Below, in pieces: positions 2,047-10,006 of a DNA stretch of 64,000 bases. The notes beneath the pieces were generated by a model, which saw nothing but the letters and a program-made list of their open reading frames with translations, was not told where the DNA came from and ran no database searches. The stretch's first letter is position 1; each line of letters begins with the position of its first letter. The stretch comes from Candidatus Anammoximicrobium sp. (GTDB taxonomy: Bacteria; Planctomycetota; Planctomycetia; Pirellulales; Pirellulaceae), in assembly GCA_012515235.1 (NCBI GenBank), contig JAAYYU010000027.1, positions 62,001 through 126,000 of the forward strand, written 5' to 3'. Both the position numbers and the translations under genes were made by a program.

Positions 2047-2245
2047 TGTTTCGCCACCACGCTGCTTGCCAGCGTGGAGCGGTGTTCAAGATGCTCGACT
2101 CGTTGGGCGAGACGACGGCTGGTTCTGAACATGGCCCCACGCTGGCAAGCAGCGTGGTGGCCGACGAGGAAAAAGTCGCGCGACGAAACGACGCTTGGTT
2201 CTGAACATGGCCCCACGCTGGCAAGCAGCGTGGTGGCCGAAATCC
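2047..2245. repeat. Palindromic dispersed repeat cluster (first site)
   Basis: Three copies of a perfect hairpin with arms CCACGCTG and CAGCGTGG lie here. Two direct copies (loop GCAAG, ctggcaagca cores at 2142 and 2218, 76 bases apart) are preceded by GGTTCTGAACATGG and followed by TGGTGGCCGA. The first copy (about 2057-2077) has the loop CTTGC and is inverted relative to the others. The same element forms the 70-bp array at 52301-52660, and both sites share the left flank TGTTTCGCCACCACGCTG. Short open frames through these repeats are artefacts. Confidence 0.85.
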
Positions 2246-2411
2246 GGGAAGCTATTCTGGCCACCGTTGCAGCAGGCGGTTTGTCGCTTCCCCAAGACAG
2301 GCAAAGAGCCTGGACGCAGTCCCGGACGCACAAGTCCACCGCGATCCTCTTGCGGCCTTGCGTGGGCCCGCCAGGCTGCTCCGGACGCGCGGCGCTGCAC
2401 CGCGTGCCGGC

Positions 2412-2440
2412 TACGCTTGTCCGGGCAACTGGCCTATAAT
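2412..2440 (+). promoter_or_regulatory. Possible promoter of nadA (-10 only)
   Basis: A perfect TATAAT hexamer lies at 2435-2440, about 63 bases upstream of the nadA start. No convincing -35 box sits 16-18 bases upstream; the nearest TTG-containing hexamer (TTGTCC, 2417-2422) is only 12 bases away. This is a weak call based on the -10 match and its position. Confidence 0.3.
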
Positions 2441-2503
2441 GGGCCAGATTCGGTATCGAGCCCGCGCGGGCCTGCCGGCCCCGGAACGAAGACGAGATCC
2501 ACC

Positions 2504-3676
2504 ATGACCATCACACGGCACGAGCCGGCACGGCTCGAATTGGCGCTCTACAAGTCGCTGGAAAACGAAGAACTGTCGTCCCGCATCGAGGCGGTGCGCG
2601 CCCAACTGGGATCGGGCCTGCTGATCCTGGGGCATCACTACCAGCAGGACGAAGTCATTGCGCACAGCGACCTGCGCGGCGACAGTTATCAACTGAGCCG
2701 CCTGGCGGCTGACAGCCAGGATTGCCGCACGATCGTGTTCTGCGGCGTCCACTTCATGGCCGAAACGGCCGATATCCTGGCCAATCGTCCGGAGAAACTG
2801 GCGGCGCGCAGCGGCGAGCGGGTGACGGTGATCCTGCCCGATCTGGCCGCCGGCTGCTCGATGGCCGACATGGCGGCGGTCGAGCAGGTCGAAGCGGCTT
2901 GGGAGGACCTTGGCCAGGTGATCGACACCAGCGAGATCACGCCGGTCACCTACATCAATTCGGCCGCCGGCCTGAAGGCGTTCTGCGGCCGGCACGGCGG
3001 CATCGTCTGCACGTCCAGCAACGCCGGGCCAGTGCTGAAGTGGGCCTTTCAGCGGACGCGCCGAGTGTTGTTCTTTCCGGATCAGCACCTGGGACGCAAC
3101 ACGGCCCTGCGGATGGGCGTGCCGATCGAACAGATGCCCGTTTGGAATCCGTACGCGCCGGAGTTGGGCGGCAACACAGAGGAAGCGATCCGCGCCAGCC
3201 GCGTGCTGCTGTGGCAGGGCCACTGCAGCGTCCACCAGGTGTTCCGCCCGGAACACGTCCAACAGCTCCGGCTGCAGGTCCCAGGCATCAAGATCCTGGT
3301 CCATCCCGAATGCCCCCGCGAGGTCGTGGATTTGGCCGACGCCTTCGGCTCGACCTATAAAATCGTCCAAGTCGTCGAACAATCCCCGTCTGGCAGCAAG
3401 TGGGCCATCGGCACCGAACTGCATCTGGTCAACCGGCTAAAGAAGGCCCACCCCGATCAGGAAATCCACTTCCTGGCCCCCATGGTCTGCATGTGCGCCA
3501 CGATGTACCGCATCGACTTGGCGCACCTGTGCTGGAGCCTGGAGAACCTGGTCGCCGGCCACCGGGTGAACGTCATCCAAGTCGAACCCGAAACCAGTCG
3601 CTGGTCGCTGGTCGCCCTGGAACGGATGTTGCAGGTCAGCAGCGTTCGAGAAACAACGCTCGCCTCGCCAACGTAG
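2504..3676 (+). CDS. nadA: Quinolinate synthase NadA
   Basis: Quinolinate synthase condenses iminoaspartate with dihydroxyacetone phosphate to make quinolinate in de novo NAD synthesis, using a [4Fe-4S] cluster. The 390-residue product has the family motifs GHHYQQDEV (43-51), GCSMADMA (117-124), CTSSNA (169-174), FPDQHLGRNT (191-200), CSVHQVF (241-247), HPECP and CMCATMYRI (329-337). Candidate cluster ligands are Cys118, Cys241 and Cys329 or Cys331, judged by spacing to known NadA proteins. The frame is open upstream to 2195, but those codons run through the repeat cluster, so the ATG at 2504 was chosen. No nadB or nadC is adjacent. The protein is of the longer NadA form, with extra sequence in the first half. 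Confidence 0.95.
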   Translation: MTITRHEPARLELALYKSLENEELSSRIEAVRAQLGSGLLILGHHYQQDEVIAHSDLRGDSYQLSRLAADSQDCRTIVFCGVHFMAETADILANRPEKLAARSGERVTVILPDLAAGCSMADMAAVEQVEAAWEDLGQVIDTSEITPVTYINSAAGLKAFCGRHGGIVCTSSNAGPVLKWAFQRTRRVLFFPDQHLGRNTALRMGVPIEQMPVWNPYAPELGGNTEEAIRASRVLLWQGHCSVHQVFRPEHVQQLRLQVPGIKILVHPECPREVVDLADAFGSTYKIVQVVEQSPSGSKWAIGTELHLVNRLKKAHPDQEIHFLAPMVCMCATMYRIDLAHLCWSLENLVAGHRVNVIQVEPETSRWSLVALERMLQVSSVRETTLASPT

Positions 3677-3942: not shown

Positions 3943-3971
3943 TTGACGCCGATAAAAGGGAACGCTAACAT
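3943..3971 (+). promoter_or_regulatory. Candidate sigma70-type promoter of the ilv leader
   Basis: TTGACG (3943-3948) and TAACAT (3966-3971) are separated by exactly 17 bases. This places transcription start near 3978, about 30 bases before the leader peptide ATG at 4010, the spacing expected for an attenuated biosynthetic operon. A second -10-like hexamer, TTTAAT (3971-3976), has no matching -35 box. Confidence 0.6.
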
Positions 3972-4009: not shown

Positions 4010-4114
4010 ATGAACCGCGATTTTCGTTCCAACTTGAGACTGCTGGCCACCCCCGTGGCAGTCCTGGGCGTCGTGGTTCTGGTCGGCGTCGTCGTAGACG
4101 ACGTCGCGTCGTAG
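4010..4114 (+). CDS. ilvBN operon leader peptide (IvbL-like)
   Basis: A 34-codon frame runs from ATG at 4010 to TAG at 4112-4114. Fifteen of its 34 residues are Val (10) or Leu (5), concentrated in the stretch VAVLGVVVLVGVVV. It contains no Ile. This composition matches the regulatory leader peptide of the enterobacterial ilvBN operon, where slow translation of Val and Leu codons controls attenuation. It lies between a promoter (3943-3971) and a strong GC-rich terminator hairpin (4150-4184), upstream of ilvB. Its codons overlap the first RNA stem and its stop codon falls inside the antiterminator segment, as the mechanism needs. There is no strong Shine-Dalgarno sequence. The role is inferred; the peptide itself is unlikely to have another function. 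Confidence 0.8.
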   Translation: MNRDFRSNLRLLATPVAVLGVVVLVGVVVDDVAS

Positions 4115-4171
4115 GGGGTCAAGCGGACACCACAATCCGGACCATCACCCAACCCCCGCCGGCGCGACGCG
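4084..4171 (+). promoter_or_regulatory. Alternative RNA pairings of the ilv attenuator
   Basis: Segment 1:2 is a stem of 4084-4093 with 4097-4106 (core CGTCGTC / GACGACG), lying on the last Val codons of the leader. The competing antiterminator pairs 4105-4111 (CGCGTCG) with 4165-4171 (CGACGCG), and 4114-4119 (GGGGGT) with 4152-4157 (ACCCCC). The antiterminator uses the left arm of the terminator, so the two cannot coexist. A ribosome stalled on Val/Leu codons would block segment 1 and favour the antiterminator. A ribosome that reaches the stop at 4112 would cover segment 2 and favour termination. Confidence 0.7.
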
Positions 4172-4194
4172 CCGGCGGGGGTTGTCCTTTCTTG
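4150..4194 (+). terminator. Attenuator terminator upstream of ilvB
   Basis: A perfect 17-bp inverted repeat (4150-4166 and 4168-4184, arms AACCCCCGCCGGCGCG and its complement) is followed by the pyrimidine-rich tail TCCTTTCTT. It lies between the leader peptide stop and the ilvB start, so it terminates before any downstream gene. This is the arrangement of a transcription attenuator rather than an end-of-operon terminator. Confidence 0.8.
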
Positions 4195-4239
4195 GCATCC
4201 TGACCCGCGCCGGCCGTCGCTCCGGCAGCCAAGAAAGGA
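4185..4239 (+). promoter_or_regulatory. Stem sequestering the ilvB ribosome binding site
   Basis: TCCTTTCTTGGC (4185-4196), the tail of the attenuator, is exactly complementary to GCCAAGAAAGGA (4228-4239), which holds the ilvB Shine-Dalgarno sequence (AAGAAAGGAG, 4231-4240). The loop is 31 bases. In read-through RNA that refolds the terminator, this stem would hide the ribosome binding site and give a second, translational control layer. The pairing is seen directly; the function is inferred. Confidence 0.55.
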
Positions 4240-4247
4240 GCACTGCG

Positions 4248-5939
4248 ATGATTCACACCACCGGCGCGCAGGCGATCGTTCGCTTGCTGGAACGTCAGGG
4301 GATTCGCACCATTGCTGGAATACCCGGCGGCGCGAATTTGCCTATCTATGACGCCCTGTCCCAAAGCCGCCAGATCCGCCACGTGTTGGCGCGTCACGAG
4401 CAGGCGGCGGGGTTTATTGCCCAAGGCCAGGCCCGCACTACCGGCCAGCCGGGAGTCTGTTTTGCGACCTCCGGGCCGGGGGCCACGAACCTCCTGACAG
4501 CCGTGGCGGACGCAAAACTGGATTCGATTCCGCTGGTCTGCATCACCGGGCAGGTGCCGCGGGGGATGATCGGCACCGATGCGTTTCAGGAAGTCGACAC
4601 GTACGGCCTGAGCATTCCGATCAGCAAACACAATTTCCTGGTGCGGTCGGCGGGCGAGTTGCTCGAGGCGGTTCCGGAAGCGTTCCGGATTGCCGCCTCC
4701 GGCCGTCCCGGTCCGGTTTGGATCGACGTGCCGAAGGACGTCCAGAACGAGACGATCGAATTCGACGCCTGGCCTGAACCGGGAAAACCGGAGCCTCCCC
4801 CCGTGGCCGATGAGGCCGAATTGCAGCGGGCGGCGGCGATGATCAATACGGCTCGACGCCCGGTGCTGTATGTGGGCGGCGGCGTGGTCCAGGCTGACGC
4901 CGGGGAGTTGGCAACGGCCTTGGCGGAAAAAGCCTCGATTCCGGCCGCGATGACGCTGATGGGACTGGGCGCCGTGCCGTCCGATCATCCGCGCTCCTTG
5001 GGGATGCTGGGCATGCACGCGGCCCGCTATACCAACTTGGTGCTGGAGGAATGTGACCTGCTGATCGCCGCCGGCGTTCGCTTTGACGACCGCGCCACGG
5101 GCCAGGTCGCCCAGTTCTGTCCGCATGCCCAGATCATCCACGTCGACATCGACCGTAGCGAGTTGGACAAGATCAAGACGGCGCACGTGGGGATCCACGG
5201 CGACGTGGGGCAAACGCTGCAGTCGCTTTTGCCGAGGGTACGGCGGCAGATGCGGCCCGACTGGCTGGCACGCGTCGCCGAACTGAAGCGGCAGCACCCG
5301 TTGATCACACCTGGGGCGGCGGACCCGCGGATGCCTTACGGCCTGATCCTGCAAACGGCCCGCCTGGCCGGCGACGACGCGATCGTGACCACCGACGTAG
5401 GCCAGCACCAGATGTGGGCCGCCCAGGCGTACCCGTTTTCCCGGCCGCGCCAGTTGCTGACGTCGGGCGGGTTGGGAACGATGGGCTTTGGCCTGCCCAC
5501 GGCGATCGGGGCGGCCTTGGCTTGTCCCGATCGGACGGTGATCTGTTTCAGCGGCGACGGCAGCCTGCTGATGAACATCCAGGAGTTGATGACGGCTGTC
5601 GAGGAGAACGTGAACGTCAAGATCGTGGTGATGAACAACCGTTCGTTGGGGCTGGTGCATCAGCAACAGGACATGTTTTTCGGCAAACGCCACTTTGCGT
5701 CCGGATTCCGGTCCAACCTGGACTTCGTGAAGATCGCCGCCGGGTTTGGGATGCCTGCCTACGATCTGGCCACCACTGCTGCGCCGCTGGCGATGTTGGA
5801 GCAAGCCATTACCTGTTCCGGTCCCTGTTTGATTCACGCCCCCATCGACGTCCGGGAGTTTGTGTTCCCTATCGTGCCGCCGGGCGCCGCCAATCGAGAC
5901 ATGTTAGGAGGAAAAGCCAATGTCGACACTTGCGCTTGA
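4248..5939 (+). CDS. ilvB: Acetolactate synthase large (catalytic) subunit
   Basis: This ThDP enzyme joins two pyruvates, or pyruvate and 2-oxobutyrate, in the first common step of Val/Leu/Ile synthesis. The 563-residue product has the three expected domains: the N-terminal pyrimidine-binding domain with the catalytic Glu51 in ARHEQAAG, a central FAD-type domain, and the C-terminal ThDP domain with GDGSLLMN (437-444) and MNN (462-464). The ATG at 4248 was chosen because AAGAAAGGAG lies 7 bases upstream and the alignment to known IlvB starts there; the earlier in-frame ATG at 4182 lies within the terminator. The sequence closely resembles enterobacterial IlvB (isozyme I), including VDTYGLSIPISKHN and PRQLLTSGGLGTMGFGLP. 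The gene overlaps ilvN by 20 bases. Confidence 0.95.
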   Translation: MIHTTGAQAIVRLLERQGIRTIAGIPGGANLPIYDALSQSRQIRHVLARHEQAAGFIAQGQARTTGQPGVCFATSGPGATNLLTAVADAKLDSIPLVCITGQVPRGMIGTDAFQEVDTYGLSIPISKHNFLVRSAGELLEAVPEAFRIAASGRPGPVWIDVPKDVQNETIEFDAWPEPGKPEPPPVADEAELQRAAAMINTARRPVLYVGGGVVQADAGELATALAEKASIPAAMTLMGLGAVPSDHPRSLGMLGMHAARYTNLVLEECDLLIAAGVRFDDRATGQVAQFCPHAQIIHVDIDRSELDKIKTAHVGIHGDVGQTLQSLLPRVRRQMRPDWLARVAELKRQHPLITPGAADPRMPYGLILQTARLAGDDAIVTTDVGQHQMWAAQAYPFSRPRQLLTSGGLGTMGFGLPTAIGAALACPDRTVICFSGDGSLLMNIQELMTAVEENVNVKIVVMNNRSLGLVHQQQDMFFGKRHFASGFRSNLDFVKIAAGFGMPAYDLATTAAPLAMLEQAITCSGPCLIHAPIDVREFVFPIVPPGAANRDMLGGKANVDTCA

Positions 5940-6249
5940 AAAAGCAACCATCCCTTCCACGTCGTCGCCGCACACCGTAGTGGAGATGACCGTCAAGAAC
6001 CATCCGGGGGTCATGTCCCACATCTGCGGCTTGTTTGCCCGCCGCGCGTTCAACGTTGATGGGATCCTGTGCATGCCGATCGGGGAAGGAAGCACAAGCC
6101 GGATCTGGCTGCGCGTGCGGGAAGACCGGCGACTGGAGCAACTGATCCGGCAGACGCAGAAACTGGCGGATGTCCTGGACGTCCGGCGGCACGACGCGGA
6201 GCACCACGTGTTTCTGCAATTGGAGCAGTTTTTCACCGGCGTCCCCTAG
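5920..6249 (+). CDS. ilvN: Acetolactate synthase regulatory small subunit
   Basis: This ACT-domain protein binds the large subunit, raises its activity and confers feedback inhibition by valine. It has 109 residues, close to the ~96 of enterobacterial IlvN and much shorter than typical IlvH (~160). The core NHPGVMSHICGLFARRAFN is nearly the same as the enterobacterial IlvN motif. The ATG at 5920 has the Shine-Dalgarno TAGGAGGA 8 bases upstream, and the gene starts inside the end of ilvB, so the two are translationally coupled. With the leader peptide, the set reproduces the ivbL-ilvB-ilvN layout known from enterobacteria. Confidence 0.92.
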   Translation: MSTLALEKATIPSTSSPHTVVEMTVKNHPGVMSHICGLFARRAFNVDGILCMPIGEGSTSRIWLRVREDRRLEQLIRQTQKLADVLDVRRHDAEHHVFLQLEQFFTGVP

Positions 6250-8721: not shown

Positions 8722-9618
8722 CTACGAACAAACTTGCCGCGACCGCAGACGCTGTTGCAGATGTGCCAGCATGGCGGACAGCTCGCCGAGCGTTCGTTCG
8801 CGCAGACTCGCGGTGGAACTCGGCTGTTCGCCGAGAAGCTCTTGCAGGATTTGAATCTTCCCTACCGCTTTGCCTTTTTCCAAACCTTCTTCACGGCCTT
8901 CTTCACGCGCGCTGTCCAATCCCCACTGATAGTCGCGCTGTGCCTTCAAACGCTGGTCGTACATCATCCGATCCTCCGTCTTGGCTGCGATCGCCTCGAC
9001 CACAGAAATCGCCTGCTGAAACTCGACTCCCGGCAACAACGCCCGTAACCGCTCCGGCTCGTGCCCGTCCGCAAACAGAAAGAAAAAGGCCCATTGCTCG
9101 ATCGCCGAGGCCGAGTAAATCGTTTCCTCCTGCAAATTATACTTCGTCAGCTCCACCGTGTGTACTTCGATGGAATCGGAGACCTCCACGGCGTGCTCCG
9201 GGTCCGCCAGCCGGAAACGGTGGTGAGGCATCGTGTCCTCGCGAAACAGTCTCGTGTTGAGCAGGCAAATCGAGATCGCGGATCGCAGATCCGCATAATT
9301 CTGGCCGGGGTCCAACTGATTGACGTACATCGTGCAGGCGTAGTCGACCAGTCGCTGGAGCAGACCGGCAAAAACCGTTACCTGCATCTCGATGTTCAGC
9401 CACCGGCCCGCCGAATCGCGAGCCCGGATGTCCAGCACGACAAGCTTGTCGTCCGCGAATTCCTGGTAGCTGAACGGATTCAGAATCTCGGCGTGGACGA
9501 TCGGATGAACAAGCTTCAGGATGGCGTTCAGCAACCCGATGAGAACGGGGATGTTCTCGGGACTGCCAAAGACCTTCTTGAACACGAAATCGACGGTGGG
9601 TTTGATTCCCAGCAACAT
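8722..9618 (-). CDS. Rpn-family PD-(D/E)XK nuclease / putative transposase
   Basis: The 298-residue product matches the Rpn family (recombination-promoting nucleases, formerly called transposases). It opens with KPTVDFVFKKVFGSPEN and carries a PD-(D/E)XK core, seen as VVLDIRARD followed by LNIEMQV. It ends with a charged helical segment (REEGREEGLEKGKAVG) typical of the family. The ATG at 9618 was chosen because AGGAA lies just upstream and homology starts there; an in-frame ATG at 9681 adds 21 atypical residues. Rpn proteins cleave DNA and promote RecA-independent recombination, and related small variants act in phage defence. No inverted repeats or target duplication were found around it. 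Confidence 0.85.
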   Translation of the reverse strand: MLLGIKPTVDFVFKKVFGSPENIPVLIGLLNAILKLVHPIVHAEILNPFSYQEFADDKLVVLDIRARDSAGRWLNIEMQVTVFAGLLQRLVDYACTMYVNQLDPGQNYADLRSAISICLLNTRLFREDTMPHHRFRLADPEHAVEVSDSIEVHTVELTKYNLQEETIYSASAIEQWAFFFLFADGHEPERLRALLPGVEFQQAISVVEAIAAKTEDRMMYDQRLKAQRDYQWGLDSAREEGREEGLEKGKAVGKIQILQELLGEQPSSTASLRERTLGELSAMLAHLQQRLRSRQVCS

Positions 9619-10006
9619 GGAATTCCTGCGTGAATTCGGGTGGACCGTCCGCTCTCGCGTGCATTTACGATGGCTGACCAAGGCCGTCGACCAGCGAATT
9701 CAAAGCGAATTCAGACACCCCAAACATCTGCACGGCAAGGCCGGCGATTGGTGCATTTTGGACATTGATGCATCGGTAGCTCGCTGACACGGGACAAGCG
9801 GGGCGCGATTCGCGACGAGTTAGTCCTTATCCTGGAGCGGCCGGGGGAAGCCGCTGTAGTCTGTGCTCCCAGAAGCGAACCTGTCCCGCTTTCTTTGCCC
9901 TTTGCAGAGTTTGAAGGCCGTTACCCCGGCCATTCGAGCGCCGAACGGAGTACAATGTCGGCACGTGACGCGGTTGCGCGGGCTTAGACTGCCTTGGGAG
10001 GGAACG
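9619..10006. other. Intergenic stretch between divergent rpn-like and heparinase-like genes
   Basis: Nothing beyond the two flanking translation starts is supported. No clear promoter pair was recognised in either direction. Confidence 0.4.

Follow-up and report, generated by a model that had tools for sequence, protein, structure and literature searches.

Can the tail of a transcription terminator also control translation of the gene that follows it? The question is raised by the ilvB leader of the window (the whole stretch of 64,000 nucleotides analyzed here), where the terminator tail is complementary to a segment overlapping the ilvB Shine-Dalgarno (SD) sequence.

Anatomy of the ilvBN leader

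The genes under this leader encode acetohydroxyacid synthase I (AHAS-I), and both products score above the curated NCBIfam cutoffs: ilvB (4248-5939, plus strand) encodes the large subunit (NF006016, 967.5 bits against a cutoff of 870; Pfam TPP enzyme domains), and the next ORF downstream, ilvN (5920-6249, plus strand), overlaps ilvB and encodes the small subunit with its ACT domain (NF006036, 151.7 bits against a cutoff of 128; PF22629). The ORF just upstream of the leader (2195-3676, plus strand) presumably encodes a protein resembling quinolinate synthase NadA, and the product of an ORF on the minus strand (8722-9681) we take to resemble Rpn/PD-(D/E)XK-type transposase-like nucleases.

The leader itself, read on the plus strand, contains the following elements: (i) a sigma-70-like promoter (TTGACG, 17 nt, TAACAT; 3943-3971), the one match of a consensus scan for which 0.1 was expected, with TTGACGCCGATA kept in L005, the leader of the nearest relative; (ii) an ORF for the leader peptide MNRDFRSNLRLLATPVAVLGVVVLVGVVVDDVAS (4010-4114, ending in a stop codon), whose C-terminal half is rich in Val and Leu and which has homologous Val/Leu-rich ORFs in relatives; (iii) a small predicted hairpin within the Val codons (GTCGTC/GACGAC; 4088-4102), a possible pause hairpin; (iv) strand 2 (4103-4119), the 5' side of an antiterminator with partners at 4152-4157 and 4160-4168; and (v) an intrinsic terminator formed by strands 3 and 4 (4150-4184), a 16-bp stem of -37.0 kcal/mol in which 4150-4165 pairs with 4169-4184 and which has homologs in 129 leaders. 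The antiterminator 2:3 fold of 4085-4172 (-40.1 kcal/mol) occupies the 5' arm of the terminator, so that the two structures are mutually exclusive, and the Val/Leu ORF ends just before these hairpins. An Rfam scan of the window, including the ilvB and other amino acid leader families, gave no match at the gathering score. Its parts and predicted folds identify the region as an attenuator of the ivbL-ilvBN kind, in which a translating ribosome mediates the control of transcription. From this anatomy and the mechanism in Escherichia coli we infer that readthrough responds to Val and Leu supply via ribosome stalling.

The terminator tail TCCTTTCTTGGC (4185-4196), beginning at the first base past the stem, is the reverse complement of GCCAAGAAAGGA (4228-4239), with 12 of 12 Watson-Crick pairs; the latter segment overlaps the SD sequence AAGGAG (4235-4240), located 7 nt before the ilvB ATG at 4248. 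When the spacer was shuffled 20,000 times with dinucleotides preserved, twelve contiguous pairs between the tail and the ribosome binding site (RBS) region never arose, and the mean longest run was 4.4. Perfect inverted repeats that reach 12 bp or more with loops of up to about 60 nt number only four in the whole window, compared with 0-2 in shuffled windows, and two of the four are the tail:SD pair and the terminator, both in this leader. The calculated energy of the tail:SD duplex is -19.2 kcal/mol, versus -7.9 kcal/mol when this RBS is paired with the 16S anti-SD tail. The exact 12-base complementarity described in an earlier, sequence-only reading of this DNA is thus confirmed by the sequence and by the shuffles. 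The analysis is computational throughout, and what goes further than these sequence facts is predicted.

Coexisting helices and a candidate fifth strand

The same reading held that the segment could act either as terminator tail or as anti-RBS. There is no such choice: the terminator and the tail:SD helix are built from separate bases and can therefore form together on a single RNA, and terminated RNA does not contain the SD, so the tail:SD helix matters only for read-through RNA. With strand 4 held in the terminator, RNAfold predicts the tail:SD helix at 0.99 and the SD unpaired at 0.02, that is, the SD is held in a stable predicted helix downstream of the formed terminator. Tail:SD pairing does not interfere with the terminator and is therefore, in these models, no switch by itself; its dependence on amino acids needs an element that disrupts the helix upon antitermination.

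The candidate for this role is CCCGCGCCGGC (4204-4214), termed here strand 5, which lies inside the tail:SD loop, competes with that helix in the predicted folds and can pair at 10 of its 11 positions with 4171-4181 in the 3' arm of the terminator (strand 4). The account that we put forward is as follows. When Val and Leu tRNAs are charged, the leader would be read through, the terminator 3:4 would form and transcription would mostly stop, whereas scarcity of these tRNAs would stall the ribosome in the Val/Leu codons, allowing the antiterminator 2:3 to form and ilvBN to be transcribed. In the window's lineage, the terminator tail would have acquired its perfect match to the ilvB SD in the course of evolution; on leaked RNAs with a formed terminator, the tail:SD hairpin would stack alongside it and cut ilvB translation, tightening repression. 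On antiterminated RNAs, the freed strand 4 would pair with strand 5 in the hairpin loop and thereby delay or prevent sequestration of the SD; this relief is the weakest step. Taken whole, from the attenuator to the lock and the 4:5 relief, the account seems to us about evenly poised between right and wrong.

Most of the 128 homologous leaders analyzed have an element resembling strand 5 approximately 8-25 nt past the terminator. Scored against dinucleotide shuffles, the pairing energy of each leader's own strand 4 with strand 5 has a mean z of -1.44, and 38 of the 128 leaders reach p values of up to 0.05. In 81 representatives selected for dissimilar spacers by a k-mer filter, which is the sole handling of relatedness, the mean z is -1.43 for strand 4 and -0.89 for strand 3; strand 2, tried as an alternative partner, gave no signal (z of -0.14) and was rejected. 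For a leave-one-out covariation test on the same representatives, the register was fixed without the position under test and the minor letters of strand 4 were scored for a complement: 63 complementary minor-letter pairs were observed versus 35.8 expected, an excess of about 3.7 SD above shuffled spacers and 3.8 SD above swapped strand 4. Strand 5 also matches bases that bulge from the terminator stem, as CCGGG/CCCGG shows in enterics and CCGAG/CTCGG in the Accumulibacter group, and this argues that strand 5 is not a mere copy of strand 3. Further examples of strand 4/5 pairs are GGTGGGG/CCCCACC (L044) and CCGACGG/CCGTCGG (L269).

These results are also what would be expected if the 4:5 helix were the main conserved function past the terminator, preventing a return of the terminator once an mRNA has been antiterminated and, in the majority of lineages, having no relation to the SD, with the tail:SD pairing of the window a later embellishment. 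We regard this reading as quite possible, though short of an even chance. The preference for strand 4 over strand 2, the covariation and the matching of bulged bases all favor it; against it, matches are inflated by the high GC content and partial self-complementarity of the motif (GCCGG), strand 3 scores too, and the E. coli K-12 ilvB leader on its own is not significant (p of 0.28). Moreover, by the time strand 5 is transcribed the decision to terminate has been taken, so that any role of strand 5 must be post-transcriptional. Among the E. coli K-12 leaders (L270-L276), a match of the terminator 3' arm to the sequence immediately downstream is suggestive for leu (p of 0.02) and trp (p of 0.04) and was not found for thr, his, phe and ilvG; these leaders are too few to tell whether such a helix is common to amino acid attenuators. 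This reading is compatible with part of the tail:SD lock account.

Tail and SD pairing in relatives

In L005, whose IlvB is 82% identical to that of the window, 11 of the 12 tail:SD pairs are kept. The tail arm carries one substitution, T4185 to G, which creates a mismatch, and the SD arm carries one inserted, bulged C. Compensatory changes between 4185-4196 and 4228-4239, which the sequence-only reading had proposed as a check, were therefore not seen between L005 and the window; a bulge and a mismatch stand in their place. The L005 duplex is weaker (-14.8 versus -19.2 kcal/mol), and when 36 nt of coding sequence are included another fold is preferred, with the SD unpaired at 0.65. The segment 4185-4239 is nevertheless among the best conserved noncoding stretches in this comparison: identity is 92% in the tail, 90% in the loop and 100% in the SD arm apart from the one inserted base, against 61% in the promoter and 65% in the spacer before the terminator.

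Among other leaders, L128 (IlvB 67% identical) pairs tail and SD in a longer, imperfect helix of its own, with a different sequence and with the SD unpaired at 0.01; its match is purine/pyrimidine-rich, and the shuffle P for its 9-bp core is only 0.0125. In L006 the SD lies in a local 7-bp hairpin without the tail as a partner, and no tail:SD helix was found in the L129 leader. Similar tail/RBS pairings occur in a few other lineages (L163/L170, L037/L173, L174/L175, L183/L211 and L244/L255).

Sequestration of the SD as a family-wide property was ruled out. In 52 leaders, SD accessibility is 0.44 compared with 0.42 in shuffled spacers; in the 81 representatives, the tail and RBS region show no excess of pairing (z of about 0, swap rank of 0.45); and the longest tail:RBS match across the family averages 4.46 versus 4.12 in the shuffle comparison. 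Since tail:SD pairing is not above chance across the 128 homologous leaders, it looks, at the level of sequence, like a lineage-specific device rather than an ancestral part, and it may have arisen repeatedly. A hairpin of another kind was observed in the spacers of L185, L044 and L186-L196, with the SD in its loop and its 3' arm abutting the start codon; these hairpins show apparent covariation (GGGAGC/GCTCCC versus GGGACG/CGTCCC).

The absence of a family-wide excess, the lack of compensatory changes and the weakened helix of L005 would all be expected of a plain transcription attenuator, in which the lineage-specific tail:SD pairing has no regulatory effect, leaked transcripts being rare and the incoming ribosome melting the hairpin. 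Purine-rich SDs also readily pair with U-rich tails. We nevertheless consider this reading rather doubtful: the 12 bp in the window are perfect, reach -19.2 kcal/mol and were not matched by any shuffle, and the whole segment is conserved in L005. On the folding models, the terminator tail probably adds a translational lock in the window's lineage, where it is partly conserved.

The distribution of the gene is itself uneven. Few members of the window's own family carry AHAS-I-type ilvB, which was found in 3 of 241 genomes (G000, G063 and G041), one of which, G000, has a second ilvB copy elsewhere that is 48% identical; a phylum-wide sample added two further carriers, G690 and G631. The best named relatives of IlvB are proteobacterial (Accumulibacter, Azospira, Escherichia and others; 61-72% identity), and the same leader and terminator layout is located upstream of all but a few of them. 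This shared layout suggests that ilvB and its leader may have moved jointly between phyla. In L045 (Fusibacter paucivorans), an AHAS-I-like ilvB stands, as judged by eye, behind an apparent T-box leader with no ivbL attenuator. In L048, L151 and L171, where ilvB is about 70% identical, the terminator is degenerate or a longer spacer with extra repeats follows it, a sequence pattern that suggests decay or replacement of the attenuator.

Predicted relief and comparison with known systems

The antiterminated state was modeled by folding from 4168, with strand 3 taken. With strand 4 free, the 4:5 helix dominates in the tested prefixes ending at 4214-4262 (0.86-1.00), and the SD is unpaired at 0.47-0.61 across them; a separate fold with strand 4 free and up to 15 nt of coding sequence (to 4262) gave 0.56-0.61. 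In the 4:5 fold the ilvB start codon itself pairs with 4215-4220. In RNAs that end at 4266 or further downstream, the tail:SD helix is back at 0.99-1.00 and the SD is unpaired at 0.01; from 4266, strand 4 prefers the ilvB codons CCGGCGCG (4261-4268), which are complementary to 4168-4175. Relief of the SD by the 4:5 helix in the window is thus predicted to be partial and dependent on early ribosome loading. This return of the helix is what a constitutive hairpin would give, one formed in all read-through mRNAs regardless of amino acids, setting a low IlvB rate or coupling to trailing ribosomes, with strand 5 uninvolved; we consider it quite improbable, because in the order of transcription the 4:5 helix comes first, and in every shorter prefix examined it is the dominant fold.

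Relief of the SD upon antitermination was rejected for the family as a whole, being small and dependent on the coding length included: accessibility rises from 0.376 to 0.453 with 3 nt of coding sequence (p of 0.001), the effect has a p of 0.01 with 9 nt and is not significant with 15 or 30 nt, and no change was seen when it was measured over the region from the SD to the ATG.

The lock account with 4:5 relief therefore draws on the exact 12-bp match, the complete set of attenuator parts, the AHAS-I genes, the predicted folds, the conservation of 4185-4239 and the strong tail:SD pairing that L128 has of its own, and has against it the weakened L005 helix without compensatory change, the family-wide absence, the return of tail:SD pairing at 4266 and the paired start codon. 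As to the dual transcriptional and translational control first proposed from the sequence, a real attenuator, a tail that pairs with the SD and conservation of 4185-4239 in L005 speak for it; the proposal is weakened by the lack of compensatory change, by the restriction of the pairing to certain lineages and by the partial character of the modeled relief by strand 5.

Ribosome-mediated attenuators are textbook four-strand switches that act on transcription only. A functional parallel to the proposed arrangement is the Bacillus subtilis trp leader, which combines transcription attenuation with an SD-blocking hairpin on read-through transcripts; there the TRAP protein is the sensor, whereas in the window the sensor would be the translating ribosome. 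E. coli ivbL-ilvBN, to which this attenuator is directly related, shares with the window a Val/Leu-rich leader peptide, a terminator of the CCCCGCCGGCGC type with visibly similar sequence, an antiterminator, and AHAS-I ilvB and ilvN. It is without a strong tail:SD helix, and the 12-bp SD match with an enclosed strand 5 belongs to the window; an engineering paper describes the E. coli attenuator as terminator control only (PMC11187965). The Corynebacterium ilvBNC attenuator (ilvB-II motif) and the ilvB-OMG motif likewise place an ilvB operon under uORF-mediated attenuation by a terminator and an antiterminator, according to the parts of the accounts available to us (PMC11857589, PMC10272879). 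In those parts, the Corynebacterium leader, from another bacterial group and with its own sequence and structure, works by the terminator/antiterminator mechanism only, and no mention of ilvB SD sequestration was found. Predicted SD pairing or sequestration has been described for the LEU element of actinobacterial leuA and for translational T-boxes of ileS (PMC1262725), so that other ways of sequestering the SD in amino acid leaders are already known. Unlike in the window, the terminator tail is involved in neither: in the LEU element a run of leucine codons pairs with the SD, and the T-boxes sense tRNA directly. Our literature searches returned no papers on planctomycete attenuation and no description of a 4:5 helix, the latter being weak evidence as the original E. 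coli ilvB papers apparently lie outside the coverage of the search.

A broader proposal, which we hold to be unlikely and offer only tentatively, is that ilvBN attenuators in several phyla are five-stranded, the element past the terminator pairing with strand 4 on antiterminated RNA, with the fifth strand wired to the ilvB RBS in some lineages including that of the window, so that one leader-peptide signal would set both transcription and translation. Should the covarying 4:5 helix prove real, an attenuator family that is among the oldest known would have an extra, apparently undescribed component. A working tail:SD lock would mean that attenuation by a leader peptide also governs the translation of leaked transcripts.
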